NCBI GenBank assembly: GCA_003331875.1 | Contig: QOQA01000005.1 | Coordinates: 1-59,011, forward strand | Direction: 5' to 3' | From: Cryomorphaceae bacterium | GTDB taxonomy: Bacteria; Bacteroidota; Bacteroidia; Flavobacteriales; Flavobacteriaceae | Length of the DNA stretch: 59,011 nt | Shown here: piece after piece, positions 656 to 59,011 of the stretch | How the letters are laid out: each line of letters begins with the position of its first letter | Position numbering within the stretch: position 1 is the first letter of the stretch | Notes under the pieces: model-generated | Database searches by the model: none | What the model was told of the DNA's origin: nothing | Seen by the model: only the letters and a program-made list of their open reading frames with translations | Position numbers and translations under genes: made by a program

Positions 656-1804
656 ATGAAAAATATAATTACTATAATTTTTTGCATGATTATCCTCAAT
701 CTTAATGGCCAACAATGGGTTGATGATTCATGCAACAAAAAAGCTTCAAAAATAGTAAATCAAGGAATTAGCCACTTGGCAAATCTTGAATATGCTATGG
801 CATATGCAATGGCTAATGCAGCTCTGTTAATTGATGATGATTGTCAATGTGCAAAATTAATCAAAGCTGGTGCAACATCGGCTGACGCAGATTGGGGTTC
901 TAGAAAAGAAAAGTTAGATGCTGTAAATTTGGATGAGTTGACTAGTGTAGAAAAGGTATGGTATACAATGCTTAAAGCTACTTTAACTGCAGACTCAGAA
1001 ACTTATCAAAAAACTTTATCAGATGGTCTAATTGCCAACCCTGAAAGTGCTCTTTTGAATTGGTTATCTCGTGATGCATTTAAATTTGAGGACAACAAAG
1101 AATTTGCTGATATGTTTCCACAATTGGCAGCTGGATCGTATAATATGATGGCTTACCAGTCATCAAGAGGAGCCAATGGCGAAGAACCAAATTTAGACAA
1201 AGCATATGAGATGATTGACAAAAGTGCTGAGCTTCACGATGGTCCTAATATTTTTGATACTAAAGCTGAGATTGCAGCAGAAAATGGAGATTACGAAACA
1301 GCTTTATATAGTCAATTAAAGGCACATGATTATTCTTCATTTGGATCACAATACTGGCAAAATGCAGTTAAATATTGGCACAAACTAAATAAAGAAACAG
1401 TTGCAGATAACCTGAAAAAAGCTCAAGTTAATATGCAAAATGCTATCCTTGAAAAAAATGAGGAGGAATTTAAAAAATATATTTCTGATGATGAGACATT
1501 AGTAGTAGGGGATTCTAATTTAGGTGAATTTTACAACTACACTTTAGATAACCTTAATCAAGAGGCCCTAATTGACTGGGATAGTTTTGATATAAGAGAT
1601 ATTGATGTTCATTTTTCATCTGATATGACCATGGCATATCTAACTTTTTATGCTGATGGAGCTTATACTTTTAAAGAATCAGGTCAGACAGTTGATTACA
1701 ACACAAGAGCATCTGCTGTTTGGATAAGAACTTCGGATGGTTGGAAATCAATCCATGCAAATTGGGCTCCTTCTGAGGGTGGAATTGGAATTCCTATGCA
1801 ATAG
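656..1804 (+). CDS. secreted protein, helical repeat region plus NTF2/SnoaL-like C-terminal domain
   Basis: No named gene recognised. The protein of 382 residues begins with a hydrophobic signal peptide (about residues 1-18, ending near NGQ), so it is exported. Residues about 25-240 are helical and Ala/Glu/Asp-rich with a TPR-like rhythm (for example the pattern KAEIAAENGDYETAL). Residues about 250-378 look like a DUF4440/SnoaL-type NTF2 fold: an AILEKNEEEFKKYISDD helix, then strands and a final VWIRTSDGWKSIHANWAP segment typical of that fold. Such domains bind small ligands or mediate association; no catalytic role can be read here. It stands alone with its own terminator after it. 178 bp without a gene precede it (478-655), in which I see no clear promoter. 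Confidence 0.6.
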   Translation: MKNIITIIFCMIILNLNGQQWVDDSCNKKASKIVNQGISHLANLEYAMAYAMANAALLIDDDCQCAKLIKAGATSADADWGSRKEKLDAVNLDELTSVEKVWYTMLKATLTADSETYQKTLSDGLIANPESALLNWLSRDAFKFEDNKEFADMFPQLAAGSYNMMAYQSSRGANGEEPNLDKAYEMIDKSAELHDGPNIFDTKAEIAAENGDYETALYSQLKAHDYSSFGSQYWQNAVKYWHKLNKETVADNLKKAQVNMQNAILEKNEEEFKKYISDDETLVVGDSNLGEFYNYTLDNLNQEALIDWDSFDIRDIDVHFSSDMTMAYLTFYADGAYTFKESGQTVDYNTRASAVWIRTSDGWKSIHANWAPSEGGIGIPMQ

Positions 1805-1820
1805 AGCATAAACTTAACAA

Positions 1821-1850
1821 AAAACTCAGCCTAAGTGCTGAGTTTTTTTT
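1821..1850. terminator. bidirectional intrinsic terminator
   Basis: A perfect 10-bp stem (arms 1821-1830 and 1837-1846, core ACTCAGC/GCTGAGT) with a 6-nt loop is followed by T residues on the plus strand and, because the other arm starts with AAAA, by T residues on the minus strand as well. It lies between two converging genes. The stop codon of the minus-strand gene (1831-1833) sits inside the loop, so the hairpin's right arm is also coding sequence for that gene's last residues. Confidence 0.85.
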
Positions 1851-2688
1851 TACTATTTACTCCCATTAAAAAAAACAACCCTGGAATAGAGCTAACAAGG
1901 GCTGAAAATGTAAAAATTAATCCAACACTGGTAGCAATATCCGGACTAACAGTTGTATTTGTAGCTAGTGTAAAAAACACATATTCTCTAATTCCAATTC
2001 CACCAAAAGAGAAAATTGATAAAACAGATGATATCAAGAAAATATATAAGAAAGTAAAGTAGTTGTCACTAACACCAAGAGAAATTAAAATTAAGATAAT
2101 TGACCCAAACTGAAGAATTTGTATGAGATGTGAAATAAAAAAAGCCTTGTTGTAAACGATTTCATTGTCAAAAATTTTTTGTACTAAAACCTTACCAGCA
2201 ATAAATAAAAAAGTATATAAAGGACCTAAAATAGCACCGAATTTTAATGCAAATTCGAGATCTAAAATGAAACAACTAAAAACTAAAATCAAACACACAA
2301 TTACACCAAAACCAATTAACCTATCTAAGATTAATAGCTTATATATCTTCTTTAAACTCCATTGAAATTTTTTATTCATCAAAACTCCCTTGTATGCATC
2401 ACCACCAACACCACCTGGTATAAAAAAATTATAAAAAATCCCAATCATATATAGTTTGATATTTTCTTTTGAGGAAATTATAAGATTATTAGCTTTTAAA
2501 ATAAACCATAATCTTTCTGATGAAATTATCTGTGATAAAAAATATAATATTGATGCAGATAGAATAAATAATAAATCAGCACTTTTAAGTATTTCTAGAA
2601 TTTTATATATACTAATTTTGGTCAGAGTATAGTAAATGAAGAATACAGTTATAGTGACTTGAAATATTGTTAGCAACTTATTTTTCAT
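1831..2688 (-). CDS. flippase-like / lysylphosphatidylglycerol synthase TM-domain membrane protein
   Basis: This 285-residue integral membrane protein has about seven to eight hydrophobic segments. The segment FYNFFIPGGVGGDAYK (about residues 86-101) and the late FGGIGIREYVF (about 228-238) are hallmarks of the UPF0104/LPG_synthase_TM family (AglD2-like). Members lack the soluble lysyl-transferase domain of MprF and are generally thought to move or help assemble lipid-linked sugars or other lipids across the inner membrane. The exact substrate is not known. It starts 7 bp downstream of the AraC-type regulator gene on the same strand, so the two are probably co-transcribed; whether the regulator controls it cannot be told. 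Confidence 0.75.
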   Translation of the reverse strand: MKNKLLTIFQVTITVFFIYYTLTKISIYKILEILKSADLLFILSASILYFLSQIISSERLWFILKANNLIISSKENIKLYMIGIFYNFFIPGGVGGDAYKGVLMNKKFQWSLKKIYKLLILDRLIGFGVIVCLILVFSCFILDLEFALKFGAILGPLYTFLFIAGKVLVQKIFDNEIVYNKAFFISHLIQILQFGSIILILISLGVSDNYFTFLYIFLISSVLSIFSFGGIGIREYVFFTLATNTTVSPDIATSVGLIFTFSALVSSIPGLFFLMGVNSKKKLST

Positions 2689-2695
2689 TGAAAAA

Positions 2696-3571
2696 TCAAT
2701 TGGAGTTTAAATATTTCTTTGGAGTTGTTCCAAATTTCTTTTTGAATGCGTTTATGAAGTGACTGGCTGTACTATAACCTAGATGTAATGCAACTTCATT
2801 AACATTATAGTTTTTTGAGGAAAGCATATTAGAGGCAACGTTCATTTTATATTCAAATAAAAAACCAAATACAGTATTTCCATAGACTTGTTTAAATCCT
2901 TCTTTAAGATTTTTTAATGAAATATCTACATTTTTTGCTAATTGTTTTAATGTAGGTGGCTCAGCCATTTTTGAAATTATAATTTCTTTGGCTTGTTTTA
3001 TTTTTTTTACGTTTTTATCATCAGCCAAAAATGGACATTGATCAATATTCATTTCTTTGGAAACATTGAAATAGAGGCTTAGTAATTCAAATATTTTCCC
3101 TTTGTGATAAAGTTTTCTTACATTTTTACTGATATTTTCTGACATCATTTGTGTTAATATGGCAGTAATTTTAGGGCTTAACGAATTTTCTTTATAATAT
3201 TTTTTATTAATATGTTCATCGCTCAGAAATGGGATAGTCTCTGCGTCCTCTGAAAACAATCCGTGAAGTTTTTCAATTTTTACATGAACACTAACCAATT
3301 TGGTACCTGCATCTAAGATTGCATTGACAGGTAGATTCATTATTGGGTTGTAAAGTAGTATAGAATTACCTTTTCCAACAGGAAAACTGTATGCACCATT
3401 ATTATATTGAAAACTAACATGTCCATCAATACAAAAGTGAAATTGTATGTAATTATTTTCGGTTTCATAAAATACCTTTTGCTTTGATTTATCCCAATTA
3501 TGAAAGCTGTAATAGATCATTTCAGGATCAATCACCAATTTATTTTCGGAACTTATTTTGATATTTTTCAA
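2696..3571 (-). CDS. AraC-family transcriptional regulator
   Basis: The C-terminal ~95 residues form the double helix-turn-helix of AraC/XylS regulators: LKQLAKNVDIS (first HTH, about 203-213), then NEVALHLGYSTASHFINAFKKKFG and TPKKY, the family signature. The N-terminal ~190 residues contain a beta-rich stretch (QFHFCIDGHVSFQ, then GKGNSILLYNP) resembling a cupin-like ligand-binding domain. It is therefore likely to respond to a small molecule. The start given is TTG at 3571; an in-frame ATG at about 3520 is an alternative. It lies in the carbohydrate-degradation region and heads a short minus-strand unit with the flippase-like gene. The ligand and regulon are unknown. Confidence 0.85.
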   Translation of the reverse strand: MKNIKISSENKLVIDPEMIYYSFHNWDKSKQKVFYETENNYIQFHFCIDGHVSFQYNNGAYSFPVGKGNSILLYNPIMNLPVNAILDAGTKLVSVHVKIEKLHGLFSEDAETIPFLSDEHINKKYYKENSLSPKITAILTQMMSENISKNVRKLYHKGKIFELLSLYFNVSKEMNIDQCPFLADDKNVKKIKQAKEIIISKMAEPPTLKQLAKNVDISLKNLKEGFKQVYGNTVFGFLFEYKMNVASNMLSSKNYNVNEVALHLGYSTASHFINAFKKKFGTTPKKYLNSN

Positions 3572-3649
3572 TTTTTTATTGACTTAGAAAAGAAGTTTTA
3601 ACCAGTACACTAAAGTATATCATTTGAATCAAATAGTGTGCCTGTTTTG

Positions 3650-4882
3650 CTATTTTCTGTCTAGAGCCTCAAGCCTTTTAAGTAGGGGAGGGTGAGAATA
3701 ATGAACAAACACATAAAGTGGATGTGGATATAAATTTGTAAGTGAGTCAGATGAAAGTTTTTTTAAAGCATTTTTTAAACTTTCAGGATTAAAGCTCTCT
3801 TTGGCAAAATTATCAGCCTCATATTCATTTCTTCTACTTAAAACATTCATACCAATTCCAATAATGATACTTATTGGACTAAATAAAAAACTGAAAGCAA
3901 TTAAACCCAAATGAAATGAACTTTCACTTGCTCCAAGCGCATACGATAGGCTAGGCTCGTTAAGACATAGTTGAAGAACATAGCAAATTATTCCAACTTG
4001 TAATACAGATAAAAGTAAGCCTTGTTTTATATGATTTTTTTTATAATGACCAACTTCGTGAGCTAAGACAGCTACAAGCTCATCTTCCTCGTGTTTATCA
4101 ATAAGTGTATCAAAAAGGGCTATTGTTTTTTTTGGGCCTAGGCCAGAGAAGAATGCATTTGCTTTAGAGGATCTCTTTGAACCATCAATCACAAAAATTT
4201 TATCAAGAGAATATCCAATTTTTTTAGAGTATTCTTCAATTTTATTTTTTAAGGATCCCTCTTCAAGGGGACTTAGTTTATTAAAAATTGGCACAATGAG
4301 GGTTGTGTAAAACATATTAGTGAGAATCAGAAAAATAGATAAAAATAGCCATAACCATAACCAAAAATCAGAACCAAATAAACTGTAGATTTGAATACTT
4401 ACAAAAAGTATAAAACCGCCAATTATTAATGACATCAAAAGTCCCTTTATCTTATCTTTTAAAAAGGTAATTTTTGTGGTTTTATTAAAACCATATTTTT
4501 CTTCAATTGTAAAAACTGAATAATAACTAATTGGTAGACTTATCGCTGTGCTTATAATTAAAAAGAAAAGAAAAAAAGATGCTGATTGTAGAAAAAGACT
4601 ATCAAAATAATAAATCGAATAATCACTAATTTTCCCATAAAAACCAGAAACAATAAACATAATTGTGATGGATGTAGATAACAGTGATGATATTAAAGAA
4701 ACTTTATCTCGGTCGATTTTATAGTTCTTTGCTCTTTTATAATCACTTTTTTTATAAAAATCTTTGAGTACGTCTGGAATCGAATCATTCCAGTTTTTGG
4801 AATTTAAATATTCAAGTATACTTGAAAAAACAAAACCAAATAAGATAAAACAAATAAAAATGTATATTATGTATCCAGACAT
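3650..4882 (-). CDS. M48 family metallopeptidase, Ste24/CAAX-protease type
   Basis: A 410-residue inner-membrane zinc protease. The catalytic HEVGH motif is at residues 275-279 and the third zinc ligand is probably E355 in RRNEYEADNFA. The N-terminal half carries several hydrophobic segments and the FTIEEKYGFNKTT motif typical of the M48 N-terminal (CAAX prenyl protease N-terminal five-helix) domain. In yeast the family trims prenylated CAAX proteins; bacterial members more likely act in membrane-protein quality control, and no prenylated substrate is evident here. It is divergent from the LEA-like lipoprotein gene across 59 bp (4883-4941). Confidence 0.9.
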   Translation of the reverse strand: MSGYIIYIFICFILFGFVFSSILEYLNSKNWNDSIPDVLKDFYKKSDYKRAKNYKIDRDKVSLISSLLSTSITIMFIVSGFYGKISDYSIYYFDSLFLQSASFFLFFLIISTAISLPISYYSVFTIEEKYGFNKTTKITFLKDKIKGLLMSLIIGGFILFVSIQIYSLFGSDFWLWLWLFLSIFLILTNMFYTTLIVPIFNKLSPLEEGSLKNKIEEYSKKIGYSLDKIFVIDGSKRSSKANAFFSGLGPKKTIALFDTLIDKHEEDELVAVLAHEVGHYKKNHIKQGLLLSVLQVGIICYVLQLCLNEPSLSYALGASESSFHLGLIAFSFLFSPISIIIGIGMNVLSRRNEYEADNFAKESFNPESLKNALKKLSSDSLTNLYPHPLYVFVHYSHPPLLKRLEALDRK

Positions 4883-14151: not shown

Positions 14152-14547
14152 TGGTGGAGCCGGAGGGATTCGAACCCTCGTCCAAACGACTGAAACATCA
14201 GCTTTCTACAAACTTAGTTTTCATTTAATTTTCGATGATGATCTTGCTGAAAACTACACAATCATCACTTAGCTCCTAAAGTTTCAAACAATCATTGAAG
14301 CATTGATTATTCTATGTTAACAGTATGGTGCCTCATATAAAGTTATTGCTAACAAAAACAACTTTGAGACATCTTGCTTTCCTGCCTGGCAGGACTAAGG
14401 CTTAGACTTACTATAATTCAGTCTTTAAGCAGCAAGAGCGTATTTATTTTCGCCATTTAAAGTTTTTAGCTGATATTAACGAGCTATAACTAATCGCTCG
14501 GTTTGCTTACTAACACTACTAGATCGCTGTCAAATCCAGTCGGCCCC
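14152..14547 (-). ncRNA. ssrA: transfer-messenger RNA (tmRNA)
   Basis: About 396 nt on the minus strand. The 5' end GGGGCCGACTGG (from 14547) and 3' end GGCTCCACCA (to 14152) form a 7-bp acceptor stem with one G-U pair and an encoded CCA; the TTCGAAT T-loop is at about 14164-14178. The tag reading frame at 14425-14454 reads GGC GAA AAT AAA TAC GCT CTT GCT GCT then TAA, giving the degradation tag GENKYALAA. tmRNA rescues stalled ribosomes together with SmpB and tags the incomplete protein for proteolysis; lon in this window is one possible downstream protease. A possible minus-strand promoter element TATTTTTG lies at 14575-14582. Confidence 0.97.
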
Positions 14548-29459: not shown

Positions 29460-29496
29460 CTACTCAACATTCAAAACTATTTCAGAGGTTGAATAG
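29460..29496 (-). promoter_or_regulatory. 5' leader hairpin of rplS, possible L19 autoregulatory element
   Basis: On the minus strand the arms CTATTCAAC (29496-29488) and GTTGAGTAG (29468-29460) pair over 9 bp with one G-U, enclosing a 19-nt loop. The hairpin ends 20 nt before the rplS ATG and, if the -7 element at 29502-29509 is used, would sit at the very 5' end of the message. Ribosomal-protein leaders that bind their own product are known in several phyla, and I recall an L19 leader motif reported for Flavobacteria, but I could not compare this sequence with it. Confidence 0.45.
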
Positions 29497-53295: not shown

Positions 53296-53679
53296 CTATT
53301 TATTTTTAAAATTTATACTTGCAGAATTAACACAATATCTTATGCCCGTTTCAGTTGGACCATCATTAAAAACATGACCAATATGGCCATTACAGTTTGA
53401 ACATAATATTTCTGTTCGAATTCTCATCAACGACCTATCTTCTTTGTAGGTTATACTTCCTTTTTTTGCTTTATCAAAACTTGGCCAACCACATCCACTA
53501 TCAAATTTTGAATCGCTTTCAAATAAAACTGTATCACATCCTTTACAGCTATAGTTCCCATTTTTGAAATGTAGATTGTATTTTCCAGAAAATGGAATTT
53601 CAGTTGCTGCTTCCCTCAAAACCTTATAGCTTAATCCATCTAATTTAGATTTCCAATACTTATTGTCTTTCTTTTTCAT
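53296..53679 (-). CDS. msrB: peptide-methionine (R)-S-oxide reductase, cytoplasmic
   Basis: A 127-residue enzyme reducing the R form of methionine sulfoxide in proteins. Zinc ligands are in CKGCD and CSNC; the catalytic Cys is in RYCVNSASI near the C-terminus. FSGKYNLHFKNGNYSC and GCGWPSFDKA are other hallmarks. It has no signal peptide, unlike the upstream paralogue, so this copy works in the cytoplasm. Its ATG overlaps the upstream msrB stop (ATGA). No msrA is present here. Confidence 0.95.
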   Translation of the reverse strand: MKKKDNKYWKSKLDGLSYKVLREAATEIPFSGKYNLHFKNGNYSCKGCDTVLFESDSKFDSGCGWPSFDKAKKGSITYKEDRSLMRIRTEILCSNCNGHIGHVFNDGPTETGIRYCVNSASINFKNK

Positions 53680-54140
53680 GATTTTTTAAAAATTAATGCA
53701 GCAGAGTTTACACAATGTCGAATGCCCGTAGTTTCTTTTGGCCCGTCGTTAAATACATGACCTAAGTGACCGCCACATTTCTTACATTTTATTTCTGTTC
53801 TGGGATAACCCAATTTATAATCGACATCATAAACTAGTTTATTATCAATTTCTTTATCAAAACTTGGCCAACCACAAAAGGAGTTATATTTGTTATTCGA
53901 CTTATAAAGTGGCTCATTACAACCAGCACAGTGGTAGGTACCTTTTTCATAAAAGTCATCATATTTTCCGGTGTAAGGTCTTTCAGTGTAAGCTTTCCTT
54001 AAAACCAGATATGACATTTGATCAAGTTGCTTTCTCCACTCATTATCACTTTTGATCACGTCGTAACTAATTTCATTAGTTTGCGATTTACAAGCAGTTA
54101 AGAAGAATAAAGATAGAAAGAGAAAATTTATATACTTCAT
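53676..54140 (-). CDS. msrB: peptide-methionine (R)-S-oxide reductase, lipoprotein form
   Basis: A 154-residue MsrB with an N-terminal lipoprotein signal (FLTAC, Cys17), so it repairs oxidised methionine in the envelope. Zinc ligands CAGCN and CKKC and the catalytic Cys in IRHCVNSAAL are present; FCGWPSFDK keeps the family core. It pairs with the cytoplasmic MsrB directly downstream, giving one enzyme for each side of the inner membrane. A TATTTTTG element (54153-54160, minus) lies 12 nt before its start. Confidence 0.94.
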   Translation of the reverse strand: MKYINFLFLSLFFLTACKSQTNEISYDVIKSDNEWRKQLDQMSYLVLRKAYTERPYTGKYDDFYEKGTYHCAGCNEPLYKSNNKYNSFCGWPSFDKEIDNKLVYDVDYKLGYPRTEIKCKKCGGHLGHVFNDGPKETTGIRHCVNSAALIFKKS

Positions 54141-58010: not shown

Positions 58011-58703
58011 TTGAATTTTATAGTTACAATTGACGGCCCATCCTCCTCGGGAAAAAGTACATTAGCAAAGAGACTTGCAAAAAAACTGTCAATTTTGCAT
58101 ATAGATTCTGGATCTATCTATAGAGCAGTGACATTATATGCACTACAAAATAATTTATTGTTAAATGGTAAATTTTTAATGAAAAAATTAATTAATATTC
58201 TATCAATGTCTAGTATTTCATTAAAAGAAAACAGTAATGGAATTTTTAAAATGCATATTAACAACTTAGATGTGGAAAATAAAATTAGAGGATCAAAAGT
58301 CTCAAAGCATGTAAGTGAGATTGCTAAGCATAAAAAAATCAGAGATTTTGTTCTTAAAATTCAGAGAGATATTTCTAAAAATAAATCTATTGTTATGGAT
58401 GGTAGGGATATTGGTTCATTTGTTTTTCCTGATGCGGATGTCAAGTTTTATATTGATTCCTCAATTAAAACTCGCTCAATTAGACGCTTTAATCAACTAA
58501 AACAATTCGAAAAAAAATTATCTATAGATGAGGTTAAGTATGATCTTTTGAGTAGAGATAAAATTGATAAAAATAGAAAAAACTCACCTCTAATTATTCC
58601 TGAAAATTCTCTGTTTATTAATAATGATAACAGATCAATTGATGATGTTTTAAACATTATGTTGGATCACGTAAAAAGTATCATTAATAAAAAAGTGTCT
58701 TAA
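58011..58703 (+). CDS. cmk: cytidylate kinase
   Basis: A 230-residue kinase phosphorylating CMP and dCMP with ATP. P-loop GPSSSGKST (residues 9-17), the CMP-binding IDSGSIYRAVTLYAL, MDGRDIGSFVFPDADVKFYIDSS and the terminal IDDVLNIMLDHV segment are typical. The start is TTG (58011-58013), 3 nt after the lon stop; no ATG is near in frame. In most bacteria the next gene is rpsA, which bears on the reading of the partial gene that follows. Confidence 0.95.
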   Translation: MNFIVTIDGPSSSGKSTLAKRLAKKLSILHIDSGSIYRAVTLYALQNNLLLNGKFLMKKLINILSMSSISLKENSNGIFKMHINNLDVENKIRGSKVSKHVSEIAKHKKIRDFVLKIQRDISKNKSIVMDGRDIGSFVFPDADVKFYIDSSIKTRSIRRFNQLKQFEKKLSIDEVKYDLLSRDKIDKNRKNSPLIIPENSLFINNDNRSIDDVLNIMLDHVKSIINKKVS

Positions 58704-58790
58704 CATTTGCTAAAAATAATTATTGATATTAAATTCGCTTGCCTTTTAAGGGTTTTTGGACAAATAAAAGGTATTAATTAAAATAACTTC

Positions 58791-58825
58791 TTCTACAATT
58801 TCCCTAAGTCCATATAATTGTAGAA
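58791..58825 (+). promoter_or_regulatory. leader hairpin before the repeat-coding gene
   Basis: A perfect 10-bp inverted repeat (TTCTACAATT at 58791-58800 and AATTGTAGAA at 58816-58825) encloses a 15-nt loop and ends 14 nt before the ATG at 58840. It is not followed by a T run, so it is more likely a leader structure or operator than a terminator. The rest of 58704-58839 shows no clear TAnnTTTG element. Confidence 0.4.
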
Positions 58826-58839
58826 TACAATTTATAATT

Positions 58840-59011
58840 ATGAGTCCTGAAAAAAAAGATGATGAATCCAAATCATCAAAAACAACAAAAAAATTAGCAA
58901 CAAAAAAATTAGCAACAAAAAAAACAACAGCTGCGAAGAAAACAACAGCTGCGAAGAAAACAACAGCTGCGAAGAAAACAACAGCTGCGAAGAAAACAAC
59001 AGCTGCGAAGA
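58840..59011 (+). CDS. N-terminus of a Lys/Thr/Ala-repeat protein, cut by window end (possible S1 extension or histone H1-like protein)
   Basis: The frame opens at ATG 58840 and stays open to the window end (57 codons). After MSPEKKDDESKSSKTTKK come two KKLAT units and then five units of KTTAAK. The sequence is highly basic, of low complexity, and like the tails of histone H1-type bacterial proteins, suggesting binding to nucleic acid. The gene directly follows cmk, whose neighbour is normally rpsA, so the best guess is ribosomal protein S1 with a repetitive N-terminal extension; a stand-alone histone-like protein is the alternative. It cannot be decided from this fragment. Confidence 0.6.
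   Translation, partial: MSPEKKDDESKSSKTTKKLATKKLATKKTTAAKKTTAAKKTTAAKKTTAAKKTTAAK
58888..58917 (+). repeat. 15-bp direct repeat, two perfect copies (KKLAT)
   Basis: Two identical copies of AAAAAATTAGCAACA (58888-58902 and 58903-58917), in frame and directly before the 18-bp array, coding KKLAT twice. Confidence 0.9.
58921..59010 (+). repeat. 18-bp tandem repeat, at least five perfect copies (KTTAAK)
   Basis: Five exact copies of AAAACAACAGCTGCGAAG run from 58921 to 59010 and the array continues past the window. Each copy codes KTTAAK with the same codons, including GCG, which implies recent unit duplication and not selection on the protein alone. Confidence 0.95.

Follow-up and report, generated by a model that had tools for sequence, protein, structure and literature searches.

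A lysine-rich repeat tail on ribosomal protein bS1 and a structured leader RNA upstream of rpsA in Flavobacteriales

The stretch of DNA analysed here (the window; 59011 bases) is the entire contig C23 of genome G000, which is 1.08 Mb in size and 75% complete. Its right-hand end appears to fall inside an rpsA gene with two distinctive features. The encoded ribosomal protein, bS1, opens with a lysine-rich tail built from short tandem repeats, and the interval between cmk and rpsA encodes a leader RNA. Comparison of sequences strongly supports the view that this leader is a conserved two-hairpin RNA with compensatory changes and loop–loop pairing. The combined explanation that we favour, with confidence somewhat above even, is an rpsA gene whose product carries a basic tether tail and whose leader RNA acts as an autogenous operator.

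The repeat array and the gene it opens

The right-hand end of the window contains the following features:

58011 to 58703, plus strand: cmk, encoding (d)CMP kinase, the next gene upstream of rpsA (TIGR00017, PF02224)
58840 to 59011, plus strand: start of the probable rpsA gene, coding for the lysine-rich tail at the N-terminus of bS1 and truncated where the contig ends (open reading frame, homology)
58883 to 58923, plus strand: 15-bp tandem repeat, KKLAT units, 2.7 copies (Tandem Repeats Finder)
58921 to 59011, plus strand: perfect 18-bp tandem repeat, KTTAAK units, at least 5 copies (Tandem Repeats Finder)

The cmk product scores 202.6 bits against TIGR00017 (cut-off 135.55) and also matches PF02224. 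The rpsA frame begins with an ATG at 58840, located 136 nt past the cmk stop and 14 nt past hairpin P2 of the leader, and remains open through the window end; the portion inside the window amounts to the final 172 bases, and the translation starts MSPEKKDDESKSSKTTKKLATKKLATKKTTAAK. The initial annotation had described perfect, coding 18-bp tandem repeats after cmk, with five or more KTTAAK copies preceded by KKLAT units, and this description holds in both respects. Tandem Repeats Finder reports an array of period 18 at 58921–59011 with 5.06 copies, a 100% match and a score of 182, the 15-bp repeat upstream of it also matches at 100% over its 2.7 copies, and cmk is identified by TIGR00017. Five perfect 18-bp copies are far more than chance would produce. 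Because the window end is also the contig end, the copy number of at least five is only a lower bound.

When the last 512 bases of the window were compared with their own genome, the array was found elsewhere only at the start of contig C9 (88 bp, 100% identity). A third, weak match, to contig C2 (76%, E 2.5e-4), spans only the start of the tail ahead of the 18-bp array, and a search with 60 residues of the tail found no second copy in its own genome at E values up to 10. Contig C9 begins with the perfect array (C9:1–91), which is followed by a decayed copy (KITVAK), a lysine-rich stretch and S1 domains, all in a frame of 632 codons without a stop; the stop codon ends at 1899 (G000:C9:1–1899, locus L004). 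The frame matches the NCBIfam model for 30S ribosomal protein S1 (NF004953) with 878.5 bits, against a cut-off of 720. Pfam identifies five S1 domains (PF00575) in it, and an AlphaFold2 model contains a sixth set of strands at residues 529–591. Counted together, the five Pfam domains and the modelled set make the C9 product, as judged from homology and prediction, a six-domain bS1. Since the array at the start of C9 runs in frame into this protein, the repeats very probably open rpsA.

The ends of C23 and C9 carry the identical array in a matching frame, and joining them gives the same neighbour order as in 13 siblings. On this basis we infer that C23 and C9 are joined as one rpsA gene, and the contig break most likely lies where it does because the array exceeds what the assembler could bridge. 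The proposal that the gene in the rpsA position is an S1 with a basic N-terminal extension is borne out by the NF004953 match of the frame beyond the array, and the S1 repeats anticipated past the array are present on C9 (five PF00575 domains plus the sixth modelled set), given the inferred link. The alternative candidate, a stand-alone histone-like protein ended by an early stop and followed by a separate rpsA, is ruled out by the C9 frame, which stays open and continues into S1, provided that the link between the contigs is right.

In the genus as a whole (23 genomes, including the present one), a full S1 match was found in 19 genomes; G003, G008, G018 and G019, all four of them incomplete, gave weak S1 matches only. 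Both cmk and S1 were found in 18 genomes of the genus, 13 of which have the two genes adjacent on a single contig. In the remaining five (G000, G001, G007, G010 and G020), cmk and S1 lie on separate contigs, both of which end within the tail, and the rpsA contig of G017, a genome with no cmk match, also starts inside the tail. Breaks within the tail thus affect six of the 19 rpsA genes in the genus, as expected of a long repeat. That both C23 and C9 terminate in the array could also point to an artefact of assembly concealing a short-tailed gene. We consider this highly improbable, however: sibling arrays of 7 to 10 KTT..K units, diverged copies included, were assembled right through, and the six breaks fit arrays that exceed the assembler's word rather than arrays that the assembler invented.

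The basic tail among relatives

The extension was thought at the outset to be unusual, a view that makes it rarer than it is: it is usual in the genus and recurs in other Flavobacteriaceae with small genomes. All 13 complete tails from the genus are lysine-rich (27–35% K), 71–130 aa in length, and carry a net charge of +6 to +34. In a set of 80 named Flavobacteriaceae-like loci, from which 79 tails were obtained (L084 had no anchor), 75 tails are net negative and most are 14–50 aa long. The four net-positive tails are those of L012 (+1), L073 (+3), L077 (+4) and L026 (+31, 150 aa), the last of which is the same tail as in G227.

The expectation that copy number would vary between relatives was correct. 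In the clade of the window, four sibling species (G005, G009, G012 and G021) carry KTT..K arrays of between 7 and 10 units. A second clade of the genus has KTATKTAAK units, four in G002 and five in G013, and G014 has seven copies of a KPAVKKxxxK unit. The sequences show that the repeat unit changes by clade within the genus while the basic character of the tail stays.

Genomes beyond the genus also have strongly basic tails, namely G026, G110, G325, G112, G140, G227 and G319, as well as G293 and G334, where the tail is cut by a contig end; weaker basic tails occur in G231 (+6) and G100 (+5). All of the basic-tailed genomes listed are 2.1 Mb or smaller, by rounded sizes and with some genomes partly incomplete, in a family survey that deliberately sought out small genomes and long frames and was therefore non-random. 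Many small-genome relatives retain acidic tails, and a small genome alone is therefore insufficient for a basic tail. Three genomes from more distant families (G043, G056 and G058) have a mixed tail, with a lysine-rich stretch first and an acidic one after it. The S1 of L223 (genome G049) starts with a 106-aa tail of net charge −37 that contains EEPAAEEA-like repeats, so that expansion of the S1 tail is not always basic. A different kind of S1 extension within the same family is seen in L193 (genome G103, 1495–3825, minus strand), which has an N-terminal DUF2853 domain (PF11015, 119.6 bits against a cut-off of 25).

A quick tree of the S1 core was made from 122 of the 176 extracted S1 rows. 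Thirty of the 122 rows are labelled basic, and the genus forms one clade of 19 rows. Six of the basic labels belong to cut members of the genus and were assigned by hand: L091 and L102 from a basic remnant, and L096, L105, L106 and L108 where the cmk-side start of the tail is lysine-rich or the tail is cut too short to measure. The basic label changes at least nine times on this tree if the undetermined row L212 is left out, and 10 times if L212 is counted as other; well-supported branches alone force five changes. These counts allow for losses as well as gains of the basic tail.

The GC content of the tails is 0.30–0.40. It equals or exceeds the GC of the locus in 10 of 12 arrays, with slightly lower values in L102 and L204, and relatives of comparable GC carry acidic tails; on these two grounds, AT drift as the sole source of the lysines was rejected. 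Silent versus amino-acid-changing differences between units were set aside as a test of selection, since the unit pattern had fixed the lysines beforehand. In the AlphaFold2 model of the C9 frame (mean pLDDT 73.8, pTM 0.40, alignment of 26 rows), the tail part at residues 1–62 has pLDDT values below 50 and no secondary structure. Low pLDDT from a 26-row alignment suggests that the tail is disordered.

The leader RNA between cmk and rpsA

Across the genus, the interval between cmk and rpsA contains hairpins whose two sides co-vary. In the window, the leader RNA spans 58741–58830, and its parts and the probable promoter are as follows:

58706 to 58737, plus strand: probable Bacteroidota-type promoter, TTTG at 58706–58709 and TAAATTCG at 58730–58737 (sequence reading)
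58741 to 58748, plus strand: leader helix P1, 5′ strand, GCCTTTTA (comparative pairing, folding)
58749 to 58752, plus strand: loop-1 segment A (AGGG), partner A′ at 58802–58805 (loop–loop test)
58757 to 58761, plus strand: loop-1 segment B (TGGAC), partner B′ at 58808–58812 (loop–loop test)
58765 to 58772, plus strand: leader helix P1, 3′ strand, TAAAAGGT (comparative pairing, folding)
58791 to 58800, plus strand: leader helix P2, 5′ strand, TTCTACAATT (comparative pairing, folding)
58802 to 58805, plus strand: loop-2 segment A′ (CCCT) (loop–loop test)
58808 to 58812, plus strand: loop-2 segment B′ (GTCCA) (loop–loop test)
58816 to 58825, plus strand: leader helix P2, 3′ strand, AATTGTAGAA (comparative pairing, folding)
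58826 to 58830, plus strand: TACAA directly 3′ of P2, at this spot in nearly all parsed leaders (leader finder)

The promoter call at 58706–58737, just before the leader RNA, is based on what we take to be the Bacteroidota promoter consensus. A TAnnT[TC]G box is found just upstream of P1 in 125 of the 142 parsed leaders, and in 82 a TTG lies 16–26 nt further up; the box pattern misses the TTCG form present in the window.

The plan of the leader in Flavobacteriales consists of P1 (CCTTTT...AAAAGG), a linker, P2 (TTCTnnn...nnnAGAA), TACAA and the start codon, and it was parsed in 142 of 145 cases. Of 149 loci, nine with a contig-cut S1 gave no leader, and the remaining 140 were supplemented by five more (the window and four cmk-side contigs); the three failures are L047, L186 and L209. 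The leader finder was anchored on TACAA and was blind to loop–loop pairing. The invariance of TACAA among parsed leaders is therefore by construction; TACAA is also present in all 23 leaders that were added by a covariance model. The distance from TACAA to the ATG has a median of 14 nt over 135 leaders and is 31–90 nt in 17. In the leaders with 31–90 bases at this position (L032, L033, L048, L051, L070, L083, L113 and others), an apparent further inverted repeat was noted by eye.

Pairing in the two hairpins, which have 15 base pairs between them, was assessed in an alignment of 67 sequences. Of the cells for these pairs, 89.2% are paired, compared with 74.9% after shuffling of the 3′ letters and no more than 57.1% after sliding of the partners. 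Doubly changed cells number 170 versus 56.8 in shuffles, with none of 500 shuffles as high, and 13 pairs have a double change versus 10.3 in shuffles (12 of 500 as high). Because P1 and P2 were picked from sequences that were also used for the pair count, these counts favour P1 and P2; the sliding control and the loop test are free of this selection bias. RNA folding predicts both hairpins in the leader of the window (−18 kcal/mol, z −2.1).

Before the loop test, 13 leaders with a P1 that was mis-assigned as judged by eye were dropped (L012, L018, L061, L068, L071, L073, L089, L098, L103, L183, L188, L195 and L200), leaving 129. Same-order pairing, A with A′ and B with B′, scored on the two best complementary segments, has a mean of 25.34 in these leaders, compared with 16.41 (sd 0.45) when loops are exchanged between leaders, and the highest of 40 such shuffles reached 17.60. 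By segment, the values over the 129 leaders are 10.72 versus 8.05 (sd 0.24) for A and 14.62 versus 8.52 (sd 0.26) for B. A loop–loop sum of at least 20 is found in 124 of the 129 leaders and in 24% of shuffled pairs, and the strands are diverse, with 85 different A and 96 different B sequences. Shuffles between near relatives retain complementarity, so the test leans conservative. The 23 leaders outside the alignment of the covariance model, which were recruited by that model and come in some cases from genera represented in its alignment, give a mean of 24.57, compared with 16.32 (sd 0.92) over 300 shuffles, of which the highest reached 18.81. The signal is absent in three of these leaders: L228 and L235 give scores typical of shuffles, and L229 lacks the two helices. 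In G044 (L288), the A helix is 8 bp and the B helix 7 bp; in the window, the loop helices are short but in place (AGGG with CCCT, TGGAC with GTCCA).

Pairing in the reverse (coaxial) order was also tried and rejected, being far weaker than same-order pairing: 16.49 versus 15.19 (sd 0.41) in the 129 leaders, and 16.46 versus 15.53 (sd 0.92) in the 23 outside leaders. The order A, B and then A′, B′ implies a knotted topology if both helices form simultaneously. It is possible that the A/A′ and B/B′ helices are instead alternatives and act as a switch.

The covariance model, R1, was built from P1 and P2. Within the order, it matched 29 of 40 genomes at E values up to 0.5, two of them with a second weak match (E 0.14 and 0.32), and the 11 unmatched genomes include the three very small ones of f16. 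A scan of the class under strict filters matched 15 of 295 genomes, with one match per genome; this number is a lower bound, since the filters also missed members of the order that had been matched at E up to 0.5. In addition to the window itself, all 14 of the class-scan matches that were checked lie just upstream of rpsA. With an alignment that excluded the 13 leaders rejected by eye, the model recovered 11 of them (L183 and L200 were missed) and two of the three finder failures (not L186), and it missed L206, one of the 129.

At the rpsA genes of G231, G110, G325 and G080 (L186, L206, L183 and L200), the model gave no match; the first three of these are tailed. In L186 (G231), which encodes a lysine-rich-tailed S1, the start codon comes directly after a TTTTTGCGCTCT stretch and no leader was parsed; this mRNA may be leaderless, or its start codon may be mis-assigned. 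The tailed S1 genes L183 and L206 (G325 and G110, of the same genus) are preceded by a P2-like hairpin and TACAA, with a different P1. In family f42, which belongs to another order (L227, L236, L237 and L238), P1, P2 and TACAA are kept and the loops, examined by eye, are short and without loop–loop segments. The f42 leaders are possibly a simpler form of the RNA, in which case the pseudoknot may be a Flavobacteriales addition. Outside Flavobacteriales, 22 regions upstream of rpsA were inspected by eye, and several of them seem to contain a hairpin with ATACAA after it.

Rfam 15, applied to the window at gathering scores, has no match at the leader; its only matches lie elsewhere, to a tmRNA (14152–14547, minus strand, 156 bits) and to an L19-Flavobacteria leader (29465–29491, minus strand, 31.6 against a gathering score of 31.5). 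When 17 other loci were searched with the threshold relaxed to E 5, the result was 11 matches under gathering scores, none of them at the leader. No rpsA leader in Bacteroidota was among the literature matches listed, from a scope that left out most subscription papers and all bioRxiv preprints; as far as searched, the leader RNA is unreported. Among the papers listed there was likewise no title or abstract on a basic S1 tail of this sort, and nothing was found on how the level of S1 is set in Bacteroidota. Elsewhere in the window, two adjacent, overlapping genes of similar sequence on the minus strand (53296–53679 and 53676–54140) presumably encode proteins resembling methionine sulfoxide reductase B; the second of them has a signal like that of lipoproteins.

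Possible roles of the tail and the leader

The gene resembles bS1 genes in general (rpsA; NF004953) in its six S1/OB domains and its adjacency to cmk, and differs from them by the basic, repeat-built N-terminal tail, a region that is acidic in most named relatives. Among PDB chains the nearest is 9zcd, in which the conserved part is preceded by about 15 residues and a lysine-rich tail is absent; its start is that of the S1 of L229, which makes it apparently flavobacterial. Low complexity, a lysine content of 27–35% and predicted disorder are shared with HC2-type, H1-like tails and other lysine-rich tails of nucleic-acid-binding proteins, but the tail of the window is on S1, is N-terminal and has no family match above cut-off. 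In a survey of low-complexity regions in ribosomal proteins, most such regions are reported to be C-terminal, and 34 of 45 in L21 are lysine-rich (PMC6821194).

In Bacteroidota, translation is described as proceeding without Shine-Dalgarno pairing, and S1 has been proposed as a substitute that recognises A-rich leaders instead (PMC6847099). From superposition of E. coli structures, the same source reports that bS1 domain 1 binds uS2 and that domain 4 could contact the mRNA between −12 and −15 (PMC6847099). With domain 1 anchored on uS2, a tail that is basic and disordered would, at this end of the protein, adjoin the 30S platform. In this position the tail could serve as an electrostatic tether that makes S1 bind more tightly to the 30S subunit and to mRNA in bacteria whose translation is initiated without Shine-Dalgarno pairing. 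Selection would then act on the charge and length of the tail rather than on its sequence, and slippage between identical repeats would supply the variation. In a study of Flavobacterium johnsoniae, added bS1 barely affected initiation at rpsU mRNA and gave a 2-fold higher amplitude on an mRNA without a Shine-Dalgarno sequence (PMC9976891). The basic tail must be dispensable for S1 function as such, since many Flavobacteriaceae, including some with small genomes, carry short acidic S1 tails. Anchoring at the uS2 end and Shine-Dalgarno-free translation together lead us to favour an electrostatic RNA tether over near-neutral expansion and over DNA binding or condensate formation, with about an even chance of being right.

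Near-neutral expansion would mean that AT-rich genomes, where selection is weak, tolerate a slippage-prone K/A/T array at the free N-terminus. The perfect DNA copies, which indicate recent expansion, would be accounted for in this way, as would the differences in unit and copy number from sibling to sibling, the size of the tailed genomes found (all 2.1 Mb or smaller, by rounded sizes of partly incomplete genomes) and the long acidic repeat tail of G049 (L223, net −37). We nevertheless regard such expansion as rather unlikely, given that all 13 complete tails of the genus, although their units differ by clade, are strongly lysine-rich with a positive net charge, that acidic tails are kept in many small, AT-rich relatives and that tail GC is mostly not under locus GC. 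The tail could also bind DNA in the manner of histone H1 or form condensates, and in this way link S1 or polysomes to the nucleoid or to RNA droplets. Its composition is like that of H1-type tails, the sibling tail of G014 (L104) matches Pfam HC2 (E 1.1e-8), and lysine-rich low-complexity regions have been linked to nucleic-acid binding (PMC6821194). However, the tail of the window has no Pfam or NCBIfam match at E up to 0.001, HC2 included; HC2 was matched by one of three further tailed proteins, at 35.8 bits and thus under the cut-off of 40. The tail is also carried by a ribosomal RNA-binding protein, and we judge a role in DNA binding or condensates to be unlikely.

Leaders of ribosomal-protein genes are mostly autoregulatory, and the present leader lies in the putative 5′ UTR of one ribosomal-protein gene, rpsA, in much of Flavobacteriales. 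The footprint of the 30S subunit is expected to reach 14 nt before the start codon, which is where P2 ends. With the end of P2 inside this expected footprint, the folded leader should hinder accommodation unless it is opened. From these considerations, the leader is probably an S1 autoregulatory element, that is, an operator for autogenous control of rpsA. Ribosome-bound S1 would help to open P2 and the loop–loop helices, allowing rpsA to be translated, and excess free S1 would bind the leader and keep 30S subunits off the start codon 14 nt downstream of P2. Free S1 in excess could do so by holding the leader fold or by occupying AU-rich stretches.

Precedents exist for both arms of this relationship. 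Pseudoknots are described as high-affinity targets of bS1, which is an autogenous repressor in gamma-proteobacteria (PMC10931766), and E. coli S1 on the 30S subunit is reported to melt an mRNA pseudoknot (PMC3858243). The gamma-proteobacterial rpsA translation initiation region is likewise a structured leader of rpsA (PMC10931766); the Flavobacteriales leader, with two hairpins and two loop–loop helices, is likened to that operator by gene. The ribosomal-protein leaders known from Flavobacteria (L19, S4, S15 and S16) share with it the kind of element, the lineage and the place in the 5′ UTR, but they belong to other genes and have other structures, and none of the 20 rows of Table 1 in PMC7247131, the part of that source used here, is S1.

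The conserved RNA could instead be something other than an S1 autoregulator. Its regulator could be another protein or a ligand, or the RNA might serve only to protect or position the mRNA, in which case the TACAA segment and the promoter-proximal P1 could act in stability or in start selection. This is a less probable though still appreciable alternative, and the location of the RNA at rpsA in 14 of 14 checked class-scan matches argues against it. The leader is far more widespread than the basic tail, and the two therefore need not cooperate.

With more reserve, and at odds below even, we suggest that Flavobacteriales may possess an undescribed class of rpsA regulatory RNA, knotted and composed of two hairpins and two loop–loop helices, that senses the level of bS1 in Shine-Dalgarno-independent translation, and that in streamlined lineages S1 may in addition have acquired, more than once, a polycationic tail of rapidly evolving repeats by which its affinity for RNA is tuned. 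A leader that is conserved in much of the order and shows clear covariation makes the control of S1 directly testable in F. johnsoniae, and the tails offer a natural series of S1 variants that differ in charge and length between close relatives. If this proposal is true, the strength of Shine-Dalgarno-independent initiation could shift by slippage of a coding repeat.
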